From positions 1 to 37,423 of the forward strand of contig JADNRU010000005.1 of the NCBI GenBank assembly GCA_016276965.1: a stretch of DNA of 37,423 nt, written 5' to 3'. Each line of letters opens with the position of its first letter. The stretch's first letter is position 1. Of the stretch, positions 557-36,485 are shown in pieces. The notes beneath the pieces were generated by a model. It was not told where the DNA came from and did no database searches. It worked only from the letters and a program-made list of their open reading frames with translations. The stretch comes from Nitrosopumilales archaeon (GTDB taxonomy: Archaea > Thermoproteota > Nitrososphaeria > Nitrososphaerales > Nitrosopumilaceae). Made by a program: the position numbers and the translations under genes.

Positions 557-1303
557 ATGAATGACCAATTGCTTAAGCAGATGCAAAATGCTATCAAAGA
601 AACTGTTTTAGAAAAAAAAATTGGTATTGCCTTCTCTGGTGGTGTAGATAGTTCTCTTACTGCAAAAATTTGTTCAGACTTGGGGTATCAAGTGATTTTG
701 CTTACTATTGGTTTTGAAGGCTCTCATGATATCTTGTTTTCAAAAAAGATTAACGAATTTCTCAAACTACCACACCAAACTCTAGAAATTAATGAAAAAA
801 ACTTTAATGAAATTTCCAAAAAAATTAATCAAAAAATAAACACTGATAATTTATCTTGGAATGAAAACTGTATTGCTTTTTACTATGTTTCAAAACTTGC
901 AAAAAAAATGAACCTAAATTCAGTTGTGACAGGAAATGGAATTGATGAATTATTTTGTGGATACAATGCTTATAGAGACGCAATAAAAAATGGAGAACTA
1001 AAAGTTCAGGAATTAATGAACTTAAAACTTGATAATGAATTGAAAATGATGAAGGCAGTAAATAACATCTCTTCTGAATTTGGAATAAGGATCATTCAGC
1101 CATTGCTTTCAGAAATTTTCATAAATTATGCCAAAAAAATACCTGTTTCACAAAAAATTAAAAATTCTGATGATTTAATTCGTAAACACATTATTAGAAA
1201 ATTGGCATCCGATATTGGATTACCTGAGGTTTGCGCTAATCAAAGAAAGAAGGCACTTCAGTATGGTTCTCTAATCCATAAAGCTCTAATAAAATCTAGG
1301 TAA
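557..1303 (+). CDS. Asparagine-synthase-like PP-loop ATPase (no glutaminase domain)
   Basis: This 248-residue protein carries the PP-loop SGGVDSS at residues 27-33, followed by a core resembling the synthetase half of asparagine synthase B (GNGIDELFCGYNAY, matching the family's G-x-G-x-DE-x-F-x-GY). The N-terminal class II glutaminase domain is absent, so it would need free ammonia or a partner, or it makes another amide or adenylated product. I chose ATG 557; a TTG at 533 would add eight residues (MSRDRSHI) with no family support. Its 3' end overlaps the convergent purB by 8 nt. The substrate cannot be read from the sequence. Confidence 0.75.
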   Translation: MNDQLLKQMQNAIKETVLEKKIGIAFSGGVDSSLTAKICSDLGYQVILLTIGFEGSHDILFSKKINEFLKLPHQTLEINEKNFNEISKKINQKINTDNLSWNENCIAFYYVSKLAKKMNLNSVVTGNGIDELFCGYNAYRDAIKNGELKVQELMNLKLDNELKMMKAVNNISSEFGIRIIQPLLSEIFINYAKKIPVSQKIKNSDDLIRKHIIRKLASDIGLPEVCANQRKKALQYGSLIHKALIKSR

Positions 1304-2657
1304 ATTTTTTACGTGATTTTTGAACTAACTTGAAAACATTGTTAATTATAGTACCTGATGCTCCAAGATGATTCTCAGGAGAAAATATTGATTTAATTTC
1401 GTTTTCTTTTAGTTTTGAGGAAAGTACTTTGTCTTTTTTTATTGCATCAATGAATTCCATATCTTTTTTATGAGCTTCAAAGGCCACACGTTGAACATCT
1501 CTGTATGCCTTGAATCTTGGAATACCTTTTTTGATTAGTGCTTTTAGAAGAAACTCTGCAAAAATTTGTCCTTTGGTGATGTAAAGATTTTGTTTTATTT
1601 TATTTGTATTAACATGCAAATTTTGAATAATTTTGATCATTGTTTCTAACATTTCATCAGCTAAAATAGAACACATTGGAAGAATGAATCTCTCATTTGC
1701 AGAATTAGATAAATCACGTTCATGCCAGTGAGGTATATTTTCAAAAGAAGTATGTACTTGACTTCGTAATAATTTTGATAATGATGTTATACGTTCGCTT
1801 TTGATAGGATTTCTTTTTACGGGAACGGAACTGCTTCCCATCTGACCTTTTTTGAAATGTTCTGCAACCTCATCAATTTCAGTTCTTTGTAAATTACGTA
1901 TCTCTATAGCTATTTTTTCAAGAGTTGATCCTAGTAATGCCAGCTGAAACACATATTCTGCATATCTTTCTCTCGGGATAATTTGTGTCGTAACTTCAGC
2001 AGGATACAATCCTAATCTTTTTGCAACTCTTTTTTGAACTTCAAGAGCCTTTGCACCCATTAATGAACCTGTGCCTACAACTCCAAGAGTTTTACAAATA
2101 AAAATCCTTTTTTTAATTTCTTCTATTCTTTCCAAATGCTTTGACATCTCTGCAGCCCAATTGGCAAACTTTAATCCAAAAGAAATTATACTTGCGTGCT
2201 GACCATGTGTACGACCTACTGCAGGGATATTTTTGTATTTTACTGCCTTTTGCGCTAAAAGTAAAGCTAGCTTTCCAACTTTAGGTTGAATAATTGCAAG
2301 TGCATCTTTCATTTGCATAGAATTACTTGTATCGACTAGATCATTACTTGTCAAACCATAATGAATCCACGGTCTAACTTCTAGTTTACATTTTTCACTC
2401 AAGGCTTCAACTAAAGCTGCAGTATCATGGTCGCTTTTTGCTTCAAGTTGTTTGATTCTTTTTGCTGTAATCTTACCTGATTTTGCAACCTTTAGAATAT
2501 TTTTCCCTACCGATTTTGGGATGATTCCAATCTGACTTTGGGAATAGGCTGCTGCTCCTTCAACTTCTAATTGATAATTAATTTTATTTTGTTCTCTGAA
2601 CACTGCCAACATCTCTTTTGTACCATAACGTCCACTATCTATCGGTAATATTGACAA
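1296..2657 (-). CDS. purB: Adenylosuccinate lyase
   Basis: PurB cleaves SAICAR to AICAR and adenylosuccinate to AMP, releasing fumarate. The 453 residues fit the family length. The fumarase/aspartase superfamily blocks are visible: HYGLTSND at 99-106, GRTHGQHA at 148-155 with the catalytic His, and the signature loop GSSSVPVKRNP at 274-284, where the family normally has GSSxMPxKxNP. The start is TTG at 2657; an AT-rich box (about 2679-2690) lies 25 bp upstream, consistent with a leaderless mRNA. It is transcribed away from rtcB. Together with purA at 17.6 kb it covers the AMP branch of purine synthesis. Confidence 0.95.
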   Translation of the reverse strand: MSILPIDSGRYGTKEMLAVFREQNKINYQLEVEGAAAYSQSQIGIIPKSVGKNILKVAKSGKITAKRIKQLEAKSDHDTAALVEALSEKCKLEVRPWIHYGLTSNDLVDTSNSMQMKDALAIIQPKVGKLALLLAQKAVKYKNIPAVGRTHGQHASIISFGLKFANWAAEMSKHLERIEEIKKRIFICKTLGVVGTGSLMGAKALEVQKRVAKRLGLYPAEVTTQIIPRERYAEYVFQLALLGSTLEKIAIEIRNLQRTEIDEVAEHFKKGQMGSSSVPVKRNPIKSERITSLSKLLRSQVHTSFENIPHWHERDLSNSANERFILPMCSILADEMLETMIKIIQNLHVNTNKIKQNLYITKGQIFAEFLLKALIKKGIPRFKAYRDVQRVAFEAHKKDMEFIDAIKKDKVLSSKLKENEIKSIFSPENHLGASGTIINNVFKLVQKSRKKFT

Positions 2658-9855: not shown

Positions 9856-11613
9856 CTATGATAGATTGTTTATCAATTTTTTGATACTTTCTATTTCATC
9901 TTCTTCTTGCCTTATTTTTTTGTCTAACACACGTAGCATGGCATCATTCCAAACATGGTGCGAGAAGAAATTATGTTTTGTATTGGCTATTTCAATTTCA
10001 TCATCTACTACACTGTCATCAAGAAACTTTGTTACTACAATATCTGCTAGTTTTAGAATTCTACTGTTTAGCTTAAAGCTCCTGAATATAGGTTCCAATT
10101 TTGCAATATCTTGCTTGAAATCTCCTTTTGTTTCTAGGATTTCTTTGTGTAATATTCTAAAATATGATGCTAGAAAGAATAATGTGCCGTATCGTTTAGT
10201 TTTATGACCACCTTTTTTGCCGTATTTTAGCACCTTTTTTGCATACTCTTTTACAAGATACGGATAAAGTAAAATTCTGTACTCGTCTTTTAGATTTTCA
10301 TTAAAGACGTCATCATATTTACTTCCTCTGGGCAAAAATTGTGCGGGCGAACTATAAGATTCAGTTGGTCTTTGCTCAATTCCAGCTACTAAAGCTTGGA
10401 TAGAATCTTTAGCTACAATTACTTTTTTGTGATTGTCTGGAAGATATTTGTTATAGATTGGGTCCCCTTTGAACTCACTTTGTTGCGCTTTTGTTTTACT
10501 ATCAAAAGAACCTGCTTGTATTTCATAAAAGTATCCACAATTTTGTAATTGTGATTTGATTGATTTATGAAAATCCATTAATGAAACTAGATCTTTTCCT
10601 CTTACCGAATTTTGAGAATTTCTGTATTTTGTTATGTTATTTTGATCTTGTTCATCATCTGCCTTTATGATGGTAACCGTAATACTTCCATCCAAATTGT
10701 GGGTTCGTTTTGCACGATCAAGTATAGAATTTGATGTTTGTGCACCGTTTACAATCTGTGGGGCATGCAAAATCAGAGAATTGTTTTCAAGTTCTTCAAA
10801 ATTATTTACTACTATGGTAATCCCATTATTATAATAGAAGAATTTATCAGGTTCATTTTGTAGCGTTTCACGAATTCCTTTGTTTACACTGGTCTTGAAT
10901 TGCATCCATTGTCTAATGTTTGATTCAAATACATAATCACGATTTTTGGATATGAAGTCGGTTAATTCTCTTAGTTTTAGTATTCCTAAAATAGTATTTT
11001 CATGACGTAGCATTTTTTCTAATTTTATACTAGATTTTTTTCCTGCTGCGGGTTTTTTAATCCTACTCCATAACCTGTTAATAATTTCATCAATATCCAA
11101 AACTTCAATTGATTCTCCATTTTCATAATCTTCTTTCTGGTCAGTAACGTAACAACACTGTACCTTAAGATTTTTTTCACGAATTTGGGTTACAAGATGA
11201 GCCAATTCAGGGCGCATTTTTGTCACGTCTCTGTTTAACAATCGTTTAACATCTTCTTTGAATTTAGCTATTGCTTCAATAGAATGAGATGTACCATATT
11301 TGGATTGAAATAAGCGAATCTTATCATCAGAAAAATCTACAGGAAGATAGGCATCAATTCCCAAATCATTTGCACCATCAATAATAGCATCTGCAGCATC
11401 GTCTTCGGTCGCCTCAAAAACCCGAGTTAGAATCCAATGAAGAAAATTTTTTCCTTTTTCTACCTCGGTTTTTCCACTTTCAGTATAATCATGTAAACTT
11501 TCAAGAATATTTTCTGAAAAACCCTCTAAAGGTTGATTGATTGATTCTTGAACAAGTAATGTACTAGATCCAGGAATATAGTTTAACAAACCTGCATTAT
11601 TTTTTTGTGCCAA
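9856..11613 (-). CDS. AIPR family abortive-infection phage resistance protein
   Basis: The 585-residue protein has the hallmarks of the AIPR family (PF10592): FFYYNNGITIVV at residues 258-269 and PQIVNGAQTSNSI at 285-297, preceded by SNIRQW...SVNKGI. The N-terminal 110 residues resemble a PD-(D/E)xK nuclease: GANDLGIDAYL with D87 and FQSKY with the Q-x-K at 103-105. Family members are linked to phage abortive infection and are often near restriction systems, but none of those genes is present here. The start is TTG 11613; no in-frame ATG precedes it before a stop. It lies beside tRNA-Cys with no operon partner, consistent with an acquired defence gene. Confidence 0.85.
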   Translation of the reverse strand: MAQKNNAGLLNYIPGSSTLLVQESINQPLEGFSENILESLHDYTESGKTEVEKGKNFLHWILTRVFEATEDDAADAIIDGANDLGIDAYLPVDFSDDKIRLFQSKYGTSHSIEAIAKFKEDVKRLLNRDVTKMRPELAHLVTQIREKNLKVQCCYVTDQKEDYENGESIEVLDIDEIINRLWSRIKKPAAGKKSSIKLEKMLRHENTILGILKLRELTDFISKNRDYVFESNIRQWMQFKTSVNKGIRETLQNEPDKFFYYNNGITIVVNNFEELENNSLILHAPQIVNGAQTSNSILDRAKRTHNLDGSITVTIIKADDEQDQNNITKYRNSQNSVRGKDLVSLMDFHKSIKSQLQNCGYFYEIQAGSFDSKTKAQQSEFKGDPIYNKYLPDNHKKVIVAKDSIQALVAGIEQRPTESYSSPAQFLPRGSKYDDVFNENLKDEYRILLYPYLVKEYAKKVLKYGKKGGHKTKRYGTLFFLASYFRILHKEILETKGDFKQDIAKLEPIFRSFKLNSRILKLADIVVTKFLDDSVVDDEIEIANTKHNFFSHHVWNDAMLRVLDKKIRQEEDEIESIKKLINNLS

Positions 11614-12116: not shown

Positions 12117-12872
12117 ATGAATTGGATATTTGATGCACACATTCACTTATCAGACGAAGAATACGAATCTGATATGCCATTTATCATAAACTGTATGGAA
12201 AAAATGCATATCAAGGCATGTAGCGTATCTGAGAATTATGATACATCAATTAAAACTCTTGAACTTGGAAAAAAAAGTAATTTGATTTTTTCCTTCATTG
12301 GAATACATCCTCAAAACTCAAATGAAGATATTGAACAAGTTTTGGAATTAGTAAACAGTAATTCTGAAAAAATTTCTGGAATTGGCGAAATTGGGCTGGA
12401 TAAAACATATGAAGATTCTGATGGAGGATTTCAAAAACAGAAGCAAATTTTTACCGCACAACTTTCTCTTGCAGAAAAACTCAAAAAACCAGTATCAATT
12501 CATTCACGAAAAGCTCTTGATGAAATTTATGAAATAATTCCATCATATTCTATTCAAGGAATGTTATTGCACTGGTTTGACGGAAACAAAAAGCAACTAC
12601 AAAAAGCCATGGATTTGGGATTTTTTGTATCATTTGGACCAGTGATGATATATGCAAATGACAAGCAAGTCCTGTTATCTAATACAGATAGGAACAAAAT
12701 TTTAGTTGAGACTGACGGTCCAGTTAAGTTTTCAAAATGTTTTGGGTTAAAACCGGCACAAATTAGTTTTATACCCAGTGTAATATTTTGTGCATCGAAA
12801 GTATTGAGAGTACCCTACAATGAGTTTTGCTCACTTTTGGAAGAAAACTCAAAAAATTTTCTTGGTATATAG
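12117..12872 (+). CDS. TatD-family metal-dependent hydrolase
   Basis: The 251 residues from ATG 12117 form a TatD-type amidohydrolase TIM barrel. Metal ligands are visible in order: DAHIHL near the N-terminus (H-x-H), GIGEIGLD (Glu), PVSIHSRKA (His), LLHWFDG (His) and VETDGP (Asp). Family members are 3'-5' DNA/RNA exonucleases or deoxyribonucleases; some archaeal members may have other substrates. An upstream in-frame TTG at 12105 would add four residues. The TAG stop at 12870-12872 directly abuts the promoter of the following S17e gene. Confidence 0.88.
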   Translation: MNWIFDAHIHLSDEEYESDMPFIINCMEKMHIKACSVSENYDTSIKTLELGKKSNLIFSFIGIHPQNSNEDIEQVLELVNSNSEKISGIGEIGLDKTYEDSDGGFQKQKQIFTAQLSLAEKLKKPVSIHSRKALDEIYEIIPSYSIQGMLLHWFDGNKKQLQKAMDLGFFVSFGPVMIYANDKQVLLSNTDRNKILVETDGPVKFSKCFGLKPAQISFIPSVIFCASKVLRVPYNEFCSLLEENSKNFLGI

Positions 12873-12880
12873 GTATAAAG
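12873..12880 (+). promoter_or_regulatory. TATA box of rps17e next to the tatD stop
   Basis: GTATAAAG is centred 27 bp before GTG 12904 and begins at the base after the upstream gene's TAG. The spacing decides the S17e start codon and suggests that S17e has its own promoter rather than relying on readthrough. Confidence 0.5.
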
Positions 12881-12903
12881 AACCCACCCAAATAATCGGG
12901 AAA

Positions 12904-13239
12904 GTGGATAGAATCAAAAAACTTTCAATGGAAATCTTAGAATACCATAAAGAAAAATTTGGAACAGATTTTCTTGAAAATAAAAAAATTTTAGATAAAA
13001 TCTCCATTGTACGTTCAAAAGTATTAAAAAATGAATTAGCAGGATTCATTACAAAATGCATTAAACGTGAAATTCGAGAAAAAGAAGCAAAAGAAGCACA
13101 ACTGGAAAAAGAAAGTAAAATGATCAGTGAAGAAGAATCTACACAATCTCAGAAAATCCAAACTACATCAGAAACCTCATCCGATTCACCAATTACTGAA
13201 AATCCTGAACAGGAGTTACCAAAGGAAACATCTGATTAG
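12904..13239 (+). CDS. rps17e: Small-subunit ribosomal protein eS17
   Basis: Residues 1-58 are a clear S17e: DRIKKLSMEILEYHKEKFGT, then DFLENKKILDKISIVRSKVLKN and ELAGFITKCIKREI, matching the family pattern K-x-IAGYITR-x-VKR. The protein is 111 residues, while most archaeal S17e proteins have 60-70; the extra C-terminal ~50 residues are Glu/Ser/Thr/Gln-rich and probably disordered. The GTG start at 12904 is chosen from the TATA spacing and from the family N-terminus; a longer reading from ATG 12820 would overlap the tatD gene and lacks homology. Confidence 0.9.
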   Translation: MDRIKKLSMEILEYHKEKFGTDFLENKKILDKISIVRSKVLKNELAGFITKCIKREIREKEAKEAQLEKESKMISEEESTQSQKIQTTSETSSDSPITENPEQELPKETSD

Positions 13240-13284
13240 TTTTTTAATGTAAGTTTAATTTTGTGTTAATTTGTAATCAAAAAA

Positions 13285-14061
13285 ATGATCGAAGTAAAAT
13301 TTTTTGGTGGAGCAAAAAAATCTTTTGATAATGATAACATTACCATCAAACAAGATGGTCTTACAATAAAAGATCTACTTTCATACTTAATGAAAAATAA
13401 ACCTAAAGATACTCCTGATTTAGATGTTGAAAATTTACTTATTGCTATTAACGGAATTGATTCATCTGCCAAAGACGGACTATATACTAAATTGAATGCT
13501 GGTGACACAGTCAGTATAATTCCCATAATTCATGGTGGCTCTTCTCAAAGAACGCAATTTAAAATTTCAAATTCACTTGTAGAAGTAATGGAAGTTTCAA
13601 AGAACCAAAAAAATGCTATTAAGTTTCTTGAAAATATTAGAAAAAAATTTCAACGATTAAAAATACAGGGTATTTCTTCTCGTTTTGTTCTGGGAAAATC
13701 CCATATTAAAAAAATAATTGGTCTCTCTCTTACAGCTAAAAAAAATAAACTATTGCTTTCTAATAAACTTGAAACTGATATTTTAATGAGATTGGCTGGA
13801 ACAAATCAAATTTTGCGAGCAATAGAAACAGTTGGAATTAAAAAAGGAAATAATTTTATAATAATTGCAATTGGCAATAAAACCGAACTAAATAAACTGT
13901 ACCGTGAAGTAAAACCATTTTTGAGTTCACTACTCTTTAATGATGATAATCACATTTTTTTGAAAAAACAATTTAAAATTTCAAAAAATCAAATGAATTC
14001 AATTATTTCCAAAGCTCCTTTGGAAGACTTGCTTCTAGAGAAAGCGGCAATTCTATTCTGA
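13285..14061 (+). CDS. MoaD/ThiS-like ubiquitin-fold domain fused to a KEOPS Cgi121-like domain
   Basis: This 258-residue protein joins two modules. Residues 1-85 look like a MoaD/ThiS/SAMP beta-grasp domain: IEVKFFGGAKK, LTIKDLLSYLM, LLIAINGID, LNAGDTVSIIPIIHGG, with the diglycine at 84-85 now internal. Residues ~98-215 resemble Cgi121, the KEOPS subunit that binds tRNA: GKSHIKKIIGLSLTAK, then ETDILMRLAGTNQILRAIE and TVGIKKGNNFIIIAIG. The family logic of KEOPS is transfer of threonylcarbamoyl to A37 of tRNA. The convergent Sua5-like and THUMP genes next door fit a tRNA-modification role. The Cgi121 call rests on motif resemblance only. It starts at ATG 13285 and overlaps the THUMP gene by 9 nt. 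Confidence 0.72.
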   Translation: MIEVKFFGGAKKSFDNDNITIKQDGLTIKDLLSYLMKNKPKDTPDLDVENLLIAINGIDSSAKDGLYTKLNAGDTVSIIPIIHGGSSQRTQFKISNSLVEVMEVSKNQKNAIKFLENIRKKFQRLKIQGISSRFVLGKSHIKKIIGLSLTAKKNKLLLSNKLETDILMRLAGTNQILRAIETVGIKKGNNFIIIAIGNKTELNKLYREVKPFLSSLLFNDDNHIFLKKQFKISKNQMNSIISKAPLEDLLLEKAAILF

Positions 14062-14574
14062 TAAAGAACGCTTTGTTTTTTCAACACTTAGTATAGAATT
14101 TTTTCTCAAAACTGATATTCCTGTATCATTTCCCAAAATTTCTATCAAAACAATCCAATTTGGTTCTTCTAAAGAAACCTTATTTGAAATATTTTTGGCA
14201 ATTTCTGAAATTAATTTTTCTTTAGAAATATTTGAATTTCTTTTTTCTATTGTTATTCTGTAAGAATCTCTTGGGTCCATTAGCTGAATTAATTTTAAAA
14301 CCTCACTATTTATTGCACCCACGTTTGTTGGGACAACACTTTGAATAGGAATTATGCGAAGACAATAACGAATTGACCAAGGTTCATCAAGAATTTTGCG
14401 TCTAATCGCTTCAACAATTTCTAGTGGTTTGATTTTGGTTACTACAGTTAAAATTCCTCTCATCCCAGTTTTGGTAATGTCAGAATTTTCATCTCCCAAT
14501 TCCTTCAAAATTTTCGTAATCTCATCCAGAGTTTCATCTTCAAAATTTCTTGCACAGGTAACAATTAGATTCAA
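14053..14574 (-). CDS. THUMP-domain RNA-binding protein (Tan1-like)
   Basis: The 173 residues are essentially one THUMP module with its N-terminal ferredoxin-like part: MNLIVTCARNFEDETLDEI, GMRGILTVVTKIKP, then YCLRIIPIQSVV and the THUMP core YRITIEKRNSNISKEKLISE followed by NWIVLIEILGNDTGISVL. Stand-alone THUMP proteins of this shape resemble Tan1, which helps acetylate C12 of tRNA (ac4C) with an acetyltransferase partner; THUMP domains recognise the tRNA 3' end. There is no catalytic domain. TTG 14574 starts within a 4-nt TTGA overlap with the upstream Sua5 gene, indicating one operon. Confidence 0.78.
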   Translation of the reverse strand: MNLIVTCARNFEDETLDEITKILKELGDENSDITKTGMRGILTVVTKIKPLEIVEAIRRKILDEPWSIRYCLRIIPIQSVVPTNVGAINSEVLKLIQLMDPRDSYRITIEKRNSNISKEKLISEIAKNISNKVSLEEPNWIVLIEILGNDTGISVLRKNSILSVEKTKRSLSE

Positions 14575-15176
14575 AACAGGTCGATTATCTCCTGCTTTGA
14601 GACACTTCCCTCTCTAAGTATTTTTAAATCATCACCAATTTCTACCACAGTTGATTCTCCAGTACTAGAAATTTTTCCTCCATCAATAAAAACATCATAA
14701 CCTGAGATATTCTTAGCACATTCGTTTGGATCTGTAAAAGGTAAGGTTCCTGAAATATTTGCACTAGTTCCAACTAATAATTTACATTCCTTCAAAATTG
14801 ATAAAATACATTGATTATCTGGTACTCGTACTGCTATTTTGTCTCCCAGATTCAAAGATTTTTTTATTTTTTCATCCTTTAACTTCAAAATTAGTGTAAT
14901 CTGACCTGGCCAAAATTTTTCAGCAATTTTTTCTGATTTTTCATTAAATACTGCTATTTTTGAAATTTCATTTTTTGAATATCCCAATACTGGGAAGAAT
15001 TTGGAACCATGTCGTTTTTTTATTTTATAAATCGACATTACAGCATCTTTATTGTAAGGGTCACAACCCATTCCATAAACAGTATCCGTTGGAAACACAA
15101 CAACCCCTCCTTTACGAATTGTATTTATTGCAATATCGATACACTCAGAATCACAATTAACTTTCAACTTTTTCAT
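14571..15176 (-). CDS. Threonylcarbamoyl-AMP synthase (Sua5/YrdC domain)
   Basis: The enzyme makes threonylcarbamoyl-AMP from threonine, bicarbonate and ATP, the first step of t6A in tRNA; KEOPS completes the transfer. Motifs are GGVVVFPTDTVYGMGCDP near residue 23, the KIKKRHGSKFFPVLG loop, FWPGQITLIL, AVRVPDNQ, GTSANISG near 137-144, and GESTVVEI. At 201 residues it is the short YrdC form with no Sua5 C-terminal domain. ATG 15176 has TATA-like sequence (about 15191-15205) upstream, shared with a small divergent ORF. The 4-nt overlap with the THUMP gene marks an operon. Confidence 0.92.
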   Translation of the reverse strand: MKKLKVNCDSECIDIAINTIRKGGVVVFPTDTVYGMGCDPYNKDAVMSIYKIKKRHGSKFFPVLGYSKNEISKIAVFNEKSEKIAEKFWPGQITLILKLKDEKIKKSLNLGDKIAVRVPDNQCILSILKECKLLVGTSANISGTLPFTDPNECAKNISGYDVFIDGGKISSTGESTVVEIGDDLKILREGSVSKQEIIDLF

Positions 15177-16664: not shown

Positions 16665-16741
16665 ATATTGATTAGTTCTTGTTAATTATTATTGGTTTAG
16701 GCTCGAAAAAAGTTAAAAGGAGTTTAAAGGAGTTAGATGAT

Positions 16742-17017
16742 ATGAGCAAAACTTGTACCAAATGCAAAAACCCAATTGCCGAAGATGAAGAATTGGATCC
16801 TAAAGCAGAAGGTTATCCCTGTTGCAATAAATGTTGGTCAGAATGGAAAGAATATCAAGTTATTGTAATGAACGAAATGAAATTGGATATGTCTCTTCCA
16901 GACCATAGAAAACTTCTAAGGAAAAATGAACAAATATTCGTAGGTGTTCGTACTCCCGAAGGTGATACAGTTGATTTTAGCGATGAAAAGAATAGGAATC
17001 CTGAAGAATCTTCCTAA
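16742..17017 (+). CDS. Small zinc-binding protein, 91 aa
   Basis: From ATG 16742 the protein begins SKTCTKCKNPIAEDEE and continues YPCCNKCWSEWKEYQ, so it carries CxxC and CxxxC-type ligands consistent with one zinc site, then a mostly helical acidic C-terminal half (LPDHRKLLRKNEQIFVG). The start is supported by AAAGGAG at 16726-16732, nine bases upstream, one of the few clear Shine-Dalgarno sites in the window. An upstream in-frame start at 16679 would add 21 residues lacking family support. The gene ends in a 4-nt overlap with the convergent neighbour. Function unknown. Confidence 0.65.
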   Translation: MSKTCTKCKNPIAEDEELDPKAEGYPCCNKCWSEWKEYQVIVMNEMKLDMSLPDHRKLLRKNEQIFVGVRTPEGDTVDFSDEKNRNPEESS

Positions 17018-34391: not shown

Positions 34392-36485
34392 TCAAACTTT
34401 GGCCTTTGGTAGTTTGTCTAGATTGGAAGTAGATATAAGATTTTGATGTTGACGAATTCTTTCTGATATTAATCTGTATAAAGTTCTGAACTGGTCTTTT
34501 GTTCTATCTGATAAAAAGTCTGCCTCTTTTAATGAAATTTTTTCACAAATGTATCTGGTAATTTCTTCATTATCAAATTCACTCCAACCCTCATCTCTGT
34601 GTTCATTCCATATGGCAGAAAGGTTTGCTAATACTCCTTTCTTTCCTCTAGCCATTACATCTTCTTTGGTTAGGTTGCTATATCCTTCCTTTCTTAACTT
34701 TATTTCATATGTTTGATTTACAGCATGAAGATAATCATCAAGTACCATGTAATCCTCAATTGACTGGATTGCTTTTGCTCCCAATTCAAAAAATATAGTC
34801 TGTACTTTGGAAAAATCATTTGCTGTTAATTGTGCTGAAATTAGTTTTGATTCATCACTATTATCAAGCAGAATGAATGTTTTGTATCCATGATTTCTGT
34901 AAAATATTGCTAGTGGTAATACAGAATTTTTGCTAAAGGCCGCAACAACGTTTAATGGATTCATAGAAATATTTGGATCTTCAAGGAATTTATCAAATGC
35001 ATTCAAATACATTACATCTGACATTGTTTCTACAATTATAACTGGTCGTGAATTTGTTCCAATTTCTCTATCTACAATTGAATCAACTAAACCTCTTGAA
35101 AGTCCATAGAGAATTGGAATTAAAGTTTCATCAACAGCATTCCAATAATCATAATATATTTTGCTTAGATGTTTTCTCTTATCTAATTCTACAACTAGTA
35201 GATTTCCTGGAGTATAATCAAAAATCATGAAGGGAGAATGTGTTGCATATAATACTTGATTGGAACCAGCAAGCGACTTTAACAAGTCTGCTATTCCTCG
35301 TTGTTGGATTGGATGAAGGTTTCTTGCAGGTTCGTCGAGTAACAAGATTGCTTCCTTTAGTTCAGATCTTTGTGTTTCTGCGGCAAAATTAACAATAAAT
35401 GAAAATGTCCACTTGAATCCTTCAGCTCTTCTATTTAGTAAACCAGTGTTTGTAACTGTACCATCCCTATGAATATCTGAAATAACTACACTCATAATAT
35501 TTCCTGGATTCCACCTTAAATCAACATGAATTGGATCACCTTTCCAGGCTGGATTCAGTCTAGCAGTTAACCTGTTACTTGCAGTATTTAGAAATTTAAT
35601 TAGTTTTGAGGGACTGTTTTTATATTCTTCTAATTTTTCTACATCTAATTCAGCTAAATAAAAAAGATTTCTTACTGTTTCAGCTTTATCAAACTCTTCA
35701 ATGTATTCAATTCCTTCTTGTTTCGGTTCTCTTGATTCTTTTATGTATTCATTAAGATTGATGTTTCCATAAATTTTCTTGTAATCTGAGAAATAAACAA
35801 ACCTAGGATGTAAATTTTTTTCAATAAAATTTTCCAGTGCAGTTCTTTCAGTAGTACCTACAAGAAGTTTATCAAAAGCTTCATCCATATCTTTAGAAAC
35901 TTTTTCCCATTCAGAAATAACTTGATGTTCTTCAGCTGCCAATACATGGATACTGTTGCTAAATTCTTTCATCTCACTATCAAACATCTCACGACTTTTT
36001 GGCGGGGAACCCTCAAAAAATTTTGTATCAAGACGAATCCTTATATGATTAGGTATAGTTTCTACAAAATTAAGTATATTTTCAGCAAAATTTTCCCAAG
36101 AGTTTAATGCCTTATTTTCCTCATCACTTATTTTGGTATCCCCAAAATCATATTGAGTTTGTGCATTTTTGTTAGTTCTAAAGATTCGTAACTTTTTAAT
36201 TTCTGGAATATTAGGAAATTTTTCTTTAATGATTTGAGTTTCACTTGGTAATAGATCAAATTCTCCCTCTGCAATCTTTACTTCTGACTTTAATTCTTCA
36301 TACATTTCATCACACAAATCTAAATCAGACAACTGTTCATCTTTATTCAATAAAGTAAGGGCTTGGAGAATGGTTGTTTTTCCACTTTCATTTCTTCCAA
36401 TAAATGCAGCCAAGTCACCTACTTTGATCTCTCCTGAGTCATGAATACAACGAAAAGCACGTACTCTGAACTTTCTTAGTCGCAT
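34392..36485 (-). CDS. OLD-family ATPase with TOPRIM-like domain
   Basis: The 697-residue protein has an SMC/OLD-type ATPase: Walker A GRNESGKT at 30-37, a long insertion with coiled-coil-like helices, the signature NRRAEGFKWTFSF at 351-363, Walker B ILLLDEP at 380-386 and the H-loop ATHSPF at 415-420. A C-terminal TOPRIM-like region follows, VIIVETMSDVMYLNAF (E486, D490) with ILLDNSDESK (D541, D544). OLD proteins are ATP-dependent nucleases acting in phage defence and DNA repair; GajA of Gabija is related, but no GajB helicase is adjacent. ATG 36485 with TTTTAAC about 25 bp upstream. Confidence 0.8.
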   Translation of the reverse strand: MRLRKFRVRAFRCIHDSGEIKVGDLAAFIGRNESGKTTILQALTLLNKDEQLSDLDLCDEMYEELKSEVKIAEGEFDLLPSETQIIKEKFPNIPEIKKLRIFRTNKNAQTQYDFGDTKISDEENKALNSWENFAENILNFVETIPNHIRIRLDTKFFEGSPPKSREMFDSEMKEFSNSIHVLAAEEHQVISEWEKVSKDMDEAFDKLLVGTTERTALENFIEKNLHPRFVYFSDYKKIYGNINLNEYIKESREPKQEGIEYIEEFDKAETVRNLFYLAELDVEKLEEYKNSPSKLIKFLNTASNRLTARLNPAWKGDPIHVDLRWNPGNIMSVVISDIHRDGTVTNTGLLNRRAEGFKWTFSFIVNFAAETQRSELKEAILLLDEPARNLHPIQQRGIADLLKSLAGSNQVLYATHSPFMIFDYTPGNLLVVELDKRKHLSKIYYDYWNAVDETLIPILYGLSRGLVDSIVDREIGTNSRPVIIVETMSDVMYLNAFDKFLEDPNISMNPLNVVAAFSKNSVLPLAIFYRNHGYKTFILLDNSDESKLISAQLTANDFSKVQTIFFELGAKAIQSIEDYMVLDDYLHAVNQTYEIKLRKEGYSNLTKEDVMARGKKGVLANLSAIWNEHRDEGWSEFDNEEITRYICEKISLKEADFLSDRTKDQFRTLYRLISERIRQHQNLISTSNLDKLPKAKV

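Follow-up and report, generated by a model that had tools for sequence, protein, structure and literature searches.

What is a diglycine for when it lies in the middle of a protein, between a ubiquitin-like (Ubl) domain and a subunit of the t6A-synthesising KEOPS complex, in an archaeon where no E1 enzyme is detected? This is the question raised by an ORF on the forward strand of the window, the 37,423-nucleotide stretch of Nitrosopumilales DNA analysed here; it runs from an ATG start and encodes 258 amino acids, with a Ubl and a Cgi121 domain arranged head-to-tail. An earlier, sequence-only reading of this DNA had taken the domain pair to be undescribed. It was in fact published in 2010: in the part of their account drawn on here, Makarova and Koonin report Ubl and Cgi121 as fused in every thaumarchaeal genome sequenced by that time, beside the gene for ribosomal protein S17e, and Ubl-E1 fusions in the same archaea (PMC2948915). 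The window's protein is a member of this already known family. To this we add an unfused arrangement found in sister lineages, precursor-like tails on the unfused Ubl, and the retention of an HGG motif without a detectable E1.

A fusion gene in a t6A neighbourhood

The gene, its parts and its neighbours are listed below, with neighbour counts taken over 80 named Nitrosopumilales-type loci, some of which end at a contig edge.

12105..12872, plus strand: TatD-type nuclease, upstream (PF01026; 77 of 80 loci)
12820..13239, plus strand: ribosomal protein S17e, immediately upstream (PF00833, E=6.8e-17; upstream on the same strand in 80 of 80 loci)
13285..14061, plus strand: Ubl-Cgi121 fusion gene (Pfam, NCBIfam, AlphaFold2, Foldseek)
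13285..13539, plus strand: N-terminal ThiS/MoaD/Urm1-type beta-grasp domain (Ubl), residues 1-85 (ThiS, PF02597, residues 4-85, E=2e-9; Urm1, PF09138, residues 2-85, E=2.4e-5; both above the curated cut-offs; Foldseek)
13531..13539, plus strand: internal HGG motif, residues 83-85 (sequence, predicted disorder, conservation)
13540..13557, plus strand: linker SSQRTQ, residues 86-91 (alignment with relatives)
13558..14058, plus strand: Cgi121 domain, residues 92-258, start approximate (CGI-121, PF08617, residues 109-236, E=1.5e-7, above the curated cut-off; KEOPS subunit Cgi121, NF011465, E=7e-40)
14053..14574, minus strand: THUMP-domain protein, putatively RNA-binding, convergent (PF02926, E=3e-6; 80 of 80 loci)
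14571..15176, minus strand: TsaC/Sua5 L-threonylcarbamoyladenylate synthase, convergent (TIGR00057, above the cut-off; 73 of 80 loci)

The true start of S17e probably lies downstream of 12820, and an antisense ORF of 86 amino acids is listed at 13266-13526. TsaC/Sua5 carries out the first step of t6A synthesis and, because it makes the substrate of KEOPS, the locus can be regarded as a t6A neighbourhood. A chance or assembly join was rejected, the architecture being conserved in 80 of 80 named loci, as was a viral or mobile origin, given the lack of relatives in viral contigs and the strong synteny of the locus.

Further from the fusion gene, the window holds an AIPR-domain gene of the abortive-infection type (9856-11613, minus strand), which is conserved at high score and on the same strand in 60 of the 80 loci; it belongs to the syntenic core and does not stand out as part of a defence island. 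It also holds an AAA_15 ATPase with OLD-like TOPRIM similarity (34392-36485, minus strand), and a 112-residue protein (16679-17017, plus strand; 55 of 80 loci) with a 40-residue stretch resembling bacterial YggX/Fe(2+)-trafficking proteins.

Two confident domains joined by a hinge predicted to be disordered

The sequence-only reading had proposed an N-terminal beta-grasp domain and a C-terminal Cgi121 domain, and on this Pfam, NCBIfam, AlphaFold2 and Foldseek agree; profile searches place the C-terminal half in Cgi121 and not in an unrelated family. A sequence search of the PDB leads from this half to M. jannaschii Cgi121, and from the N-terminal half to T. brucei Urm1. Modelling with AlphaFold2 on 36 family sequences gave two confident domains (mean pLDDT 89.9), and residues 83-86 (HGGS) are the only run below a pLDDT of 50, forming a low-confidence hinge at the HGG; with a pTM of 0.65, the mutual orientation of the two domains is unreliable. 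Searched with Foldseek, the model retrieved Cgi121 from archaea, yeast and human, with E-values as low as 9e-9, as well as Urm1, SAMP1 and MoaD (E from 3e-5 to 6e-4).

The diglycine that had been noticed at residues 84-85 is indeed there, inside the encoded polypeptide rather than at the free C-terminus expected of a ThiS/MoaD/Urm1-type Ubl. The Cgi121 domain had been sensed correctly but drawn too small: rather than a core at about residues 130-215, it starts a few residues past the GG. In relatives, the linker after the GG is typically small-small-basic-basic, and the Cgi121 profile usually sets in 6-7 residues past the GG, making for a short and fairly constant linker.

The Cgi121 half probably still serves KEOPS

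In M. jannaschii Cgi121, the tRNA CCA end is contacted by Q28, Q71, I72, I76 and G80, and also by F21, K56 and M60 (PMC7718258). By pairwise alignment, the first five correspond to Q128, Q175, I176, I180 and G184 of the window's protein, each conserved in 35-36 of 36 sequences, whilst K56 aligns with N160/K161, M60 with T164, and F21 could not be placed. As most residues aligned with CCA contacts are kept, the half has likely retained its KEOPS function, so far as sequence can tell. The link to t6A synthesis drawn by the sequence-only reading holds. Moreover, the fusion is conserved and is the only form of Cgi121 found in the Nitrosopumilaceae-type genomes examined, and a search of the window's own assembly found no second, separate copy. 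Kae1/TsaD was found in all nine relatives searched, the congener G151 among them, and was not found in the 85%-complete assembly of the window's own genome. An internal translation start for Cgi121 is disfavoured, since several relatives (L004 among them) lack a methionine close to where the two domains join.

Fused and unfused states across the order

Among 151 sampled genomes from the GTDB order, every genome of Nitrosopumilaceae sensu lato (so delimited by locus names) has the fusion, and in most other families Ubl and Cgi121 are two ORFs. The universality stated in 2010 holds for Nitrosopumilaceae and not for the whole GTDB order. Forty loci were extracted from outside Nitrosopumilaceae, 35 of them unfused, and in all 35 the Ubl gene immediately precedes cgi121 in the same orientation. 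The free Ubl stops exactly at HGG in 25 of these; in nine it runs on for a tail of 1-9 amino acids (e.g. HGG-MVGV, HGG-SPKPA or HGG-CL), so trimming would be needed there. In the remaining one (L067 in genome G011; 1476-2333, plus strand) the Ubl is joined to a phosphoribosyltransferase with the HGG kept; cgi121 follows as a separate gene, and a TsaC-like ORF runs convergently.

The two states can be found close together, one genus (g39 of family f8) holding both fused and unfused members. On a tree of 95 concatenated proteins, in which several deep branches are long and of unsure order, parsimony places five changes of state, at least three of them forced by well-supported branches. Fusion has either happened more than once or been undone in some lineages. 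In another family (f2; L083 in genome G001, and L068-L070), the Ubl near cgi121 carries the tails HGG-CI, -CL and -CLRYDGEVE, and a second Ubl just before the E1 gene is also tailed (AGG-NSKGYGYG).

The HGG motif is nearly invariant

HGG is kept in 140 of 141 fused proteins and in all 35 unfused neighbours. On a tree of 55 Nitrosopumilaceae-type proteins with a total length of 12.3 changes per site, H83, G84 and G85 show zero changes, against a mean of 8.7 for Ubl columns. They are not alone in this, as 21 of the 85 Ubl columns are unchanged, but they rank among the most constrained positions. That they stay invariant where the model is least ordered suggests that they serve binding or processing more than the stability of the fold.

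Could the Ubl half nonetheless be a functionless vestige of operon read-through? The single fused protein without HGG (L056 in genome G015; 688-1611, plus strand) represents a natural case of loss that would suit such an idea, and searches of this 82%-complete genome found neither an E1 nor a Prok-JAB match. Conservation speaks against a vestige, both in the unchanged Ubl columns and in the mean number of changes per column, which is lower in the Ubl half than in the Cgi121 half (10.4) of the same 55 proteins; we consider it highly improbable.

HGG persists where no E1 is detected

Searching 137 family genomes with PF00899 (ThiF) at E<=1e-8 gave a match in 106, mostly as a Ubl-E1 fusion, and in this second Ubl of the family an internal GG is likewise retained. 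The window's own genome aside, 30 genomes at least 90% complete have no ThiF match, and these were rechecked with a family E1 protein as query to guard against profile misses. Three were then not counted as E1-less: two whose E1 fragments lie, in part at least, at the ends of contigs (G198, G212) and one with small scraps (G209). There remain 27 genomes without a trace of E1, several of them 99% complete, plus the window's own (85% complete), in which no ThiF match was found and the family E1 query finds only Ubl-Cgi121 itself. Among the 27 is the 98%-complete congener G151, and E1 was not found in the next relative either. MAG incompleteness may account for a missing E1 in any single genome, but all of the sister trio L001/L202/L203 are without it. 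HGG is kept in 27 of 27 fused proteins from E1-traceless genomes (26 plus the window's); in one more such genome (G159) the fusion gene was not detected either. Across the tree, E1 state changes about 11 times, and HGG is not lost with it.

Other candidate partners are widespread. Prok-JAB matches occur in 15 of 15 family genomes tested, three E1-less ones among them (the window's, G076 and G141); each of these three has two Prok-JAB genes, and in each the fusion is the only ThiS-family match. In the window's own genome they lie on contigs 11 and 43, and the contig-11 JAMM has an intact HxH-x7-SxxD motif. An NcsA/TtuA-like PP-loop ATPase is matched in 48 of 48 genomes searched, weakly in a few.

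What might the diglycine do?

The sequence-only reading and, in the part drawn on here, the 2010 paper (PMC2948915) both suggest a sulfur carrier or SAMP-type modifier working through its GG. In this view, the GG would be activated by a ThiF/MoeB-type E1 for tRNA thiolation or for marking KEOPS. The ThiF-family matches, the ubiquitous NcsA/TtuA-like ATPase and the Urm1-type HGG tail all fit. However, extended to the window's genome this idea is doubtful, with no E1 found there or in its closest relatives and with HGG indifferent to the changes in E1 state; the GG is also internal, so that cutting would have to come first. Nor does the presence of NcsA require the Ubl of Ubl-Cgi121, since the Methanococcus maripaludis enzyme works with sulfide in vitro without a Ubl (PMC10067955). 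As an explanation that includes the window's genome, we hold it to be unlikely.

We favour instead, tentatively and at a little short of an even chance, the idea that Ubl-Cgi121 is made as a precursor open to JAMM cleavage behind the GG; release of the N-terminal domain by a cut at this point had also been raised in the sequence-only reading. The gene would yield a Urm1/ThiS-type Ubl translated as the N-terminal half of the tRNA-recruiting KEOPS subunit; a JAMM peptidase would cut past G85, as HvJAMM1 does on SAMP1-MoaE and CsJAMM on SAMP precursors, releasing a Ubl that ends in GG and leaving a Cgi121 of about 173 amino acids, which would bind the CCA end of tRNA as part of KEOPS. Ubl and Cgi121 would thereby be made 1:1, much as in the ubiquitin-ribosomal protein fusions. 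Where an E1 is present, the freed Ubl would carry sulfur or act as a modifier, with an NcsA-type tRNA thiolase as a plausible client. The tails and repeated fusions within the order look like the precursor logic of JAMM-processed Ubls, and we count in favour the near-invariant HGG in a hinge predicted to be disordered, the adjacent unfused Ubl that mostly ends at this motif in sister lineages, the HGG kept in the phosphoribosyltransferase fusion and in the E1-fused second Ubl, as well as the JAMM genes of E1-less genomes. Tails and fusions go together with the stronger JAMM type, but in one clade only; this may represent a single evolutionary event, and we do not lean on it heavily. Against cutting, we count the E1-less genomes themselves, which keep HGG though no enzyme is known there that would activate a free GG end. 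Our literature search found no paper with both Cgi121 and JAMM, and no earlier mention of Ubl-Cgi121 being cut.

Or is the protein never cut at all? As a permanent two-domain KEOPS subunit, its Ubl and HGG hinge would bind a partner independently of E1 (perhaps KEOPS, TsaC, NcsA, a JAMM protein as reader, or tRNA), coupling t6A to another process. This would suit the invariance of HGG and other Ubl residues in E1-less genomes, where E1-based chemistry has no known route; it would suit, too, the short and fairly constant linker, and the three E1-less genomes in which the fusion is the only ThiS-family Ubl. On the other hand, this GG is also exactly where the free Ubl stops in sister lineages, and the phosphoribosyltransferase fusion keeps it, so the motif does not depend on Cgi121 being attached. 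One might also expect better order in a hinge that is bound than in the segment of lowest confidence, a weak point given that partners are absent from the model. We regard the uncut subunit as a real possibility, though not a probable one, and favour the cut precursor over it; both may hold in different lineages.

Whichever applies, it is conceivable, if on balance rather unlikely, that in E1-less Nitrosopumilaceae the GG end of the Ubl serves KEOPS or tRNA modification in a conserved role that needs no E1, be it by docking or through regulated JAMM cutting. If so, a ubiquitin-like GG motif would be in use outside the E1 paradigm, and in ammonia-oxidising archaea, which are abundant in the sea and in soil. 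The fusion couples a ubiquitin-type module to t6A synthesis, and the E1-less genomes offer a natural experiment on the purpose of a Ubl GG in the absence of the enzyme believed to require it. Matched pairs for a comparison of precursor cutting, in turn, come from the genus in which some members are fused and others unfused.

Comparison with known systems

The closest counterpart is the thaumarchaeal Ubl-Cgi121 of 2010, identical to the window's in domain pair, domain order, lineage and S17e neighbour; the part of that account drawn on here, which describes conservation in all Thaumarchaea available then, mentions neither unfused neighbours nor a GG retained without E1, nor any cutting of the fusion (PMC2948915). 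The stand-alone M. jannaschii Cgi121 (MJ0187) shares the fold and most residues aligned with tRNA-CCA contacts but has no Ubl domain, whereas the window's is Ubl-fused (PMC7718258). For the predicted cut, the nearest parallels are SAMP1-MoaE and natural Ubl-MoaE, which likewise place a GG-bearing Ubl in line with a partner enzyme, and in which HvJAMM1 cuts SAMP1-MoaE precisely after the GG, the GG being needed for the cut (PMC4443979). There the partner is MoaE and cutting has been shown; here it is Cgi121, cutting is predicted, and some genomes have no detectable E1. In Caldiarchaeum, CsRpn11 cuts the archaeal ubiquitin precursor exactly after the GG and CsJAMM processes SAMP precursors, again archaeal Ubls made with residues past the GG (PMC6043591); those precursors carry short tails, whereas in Ubl-Cgi121 a whole KEOPS subunit follows.
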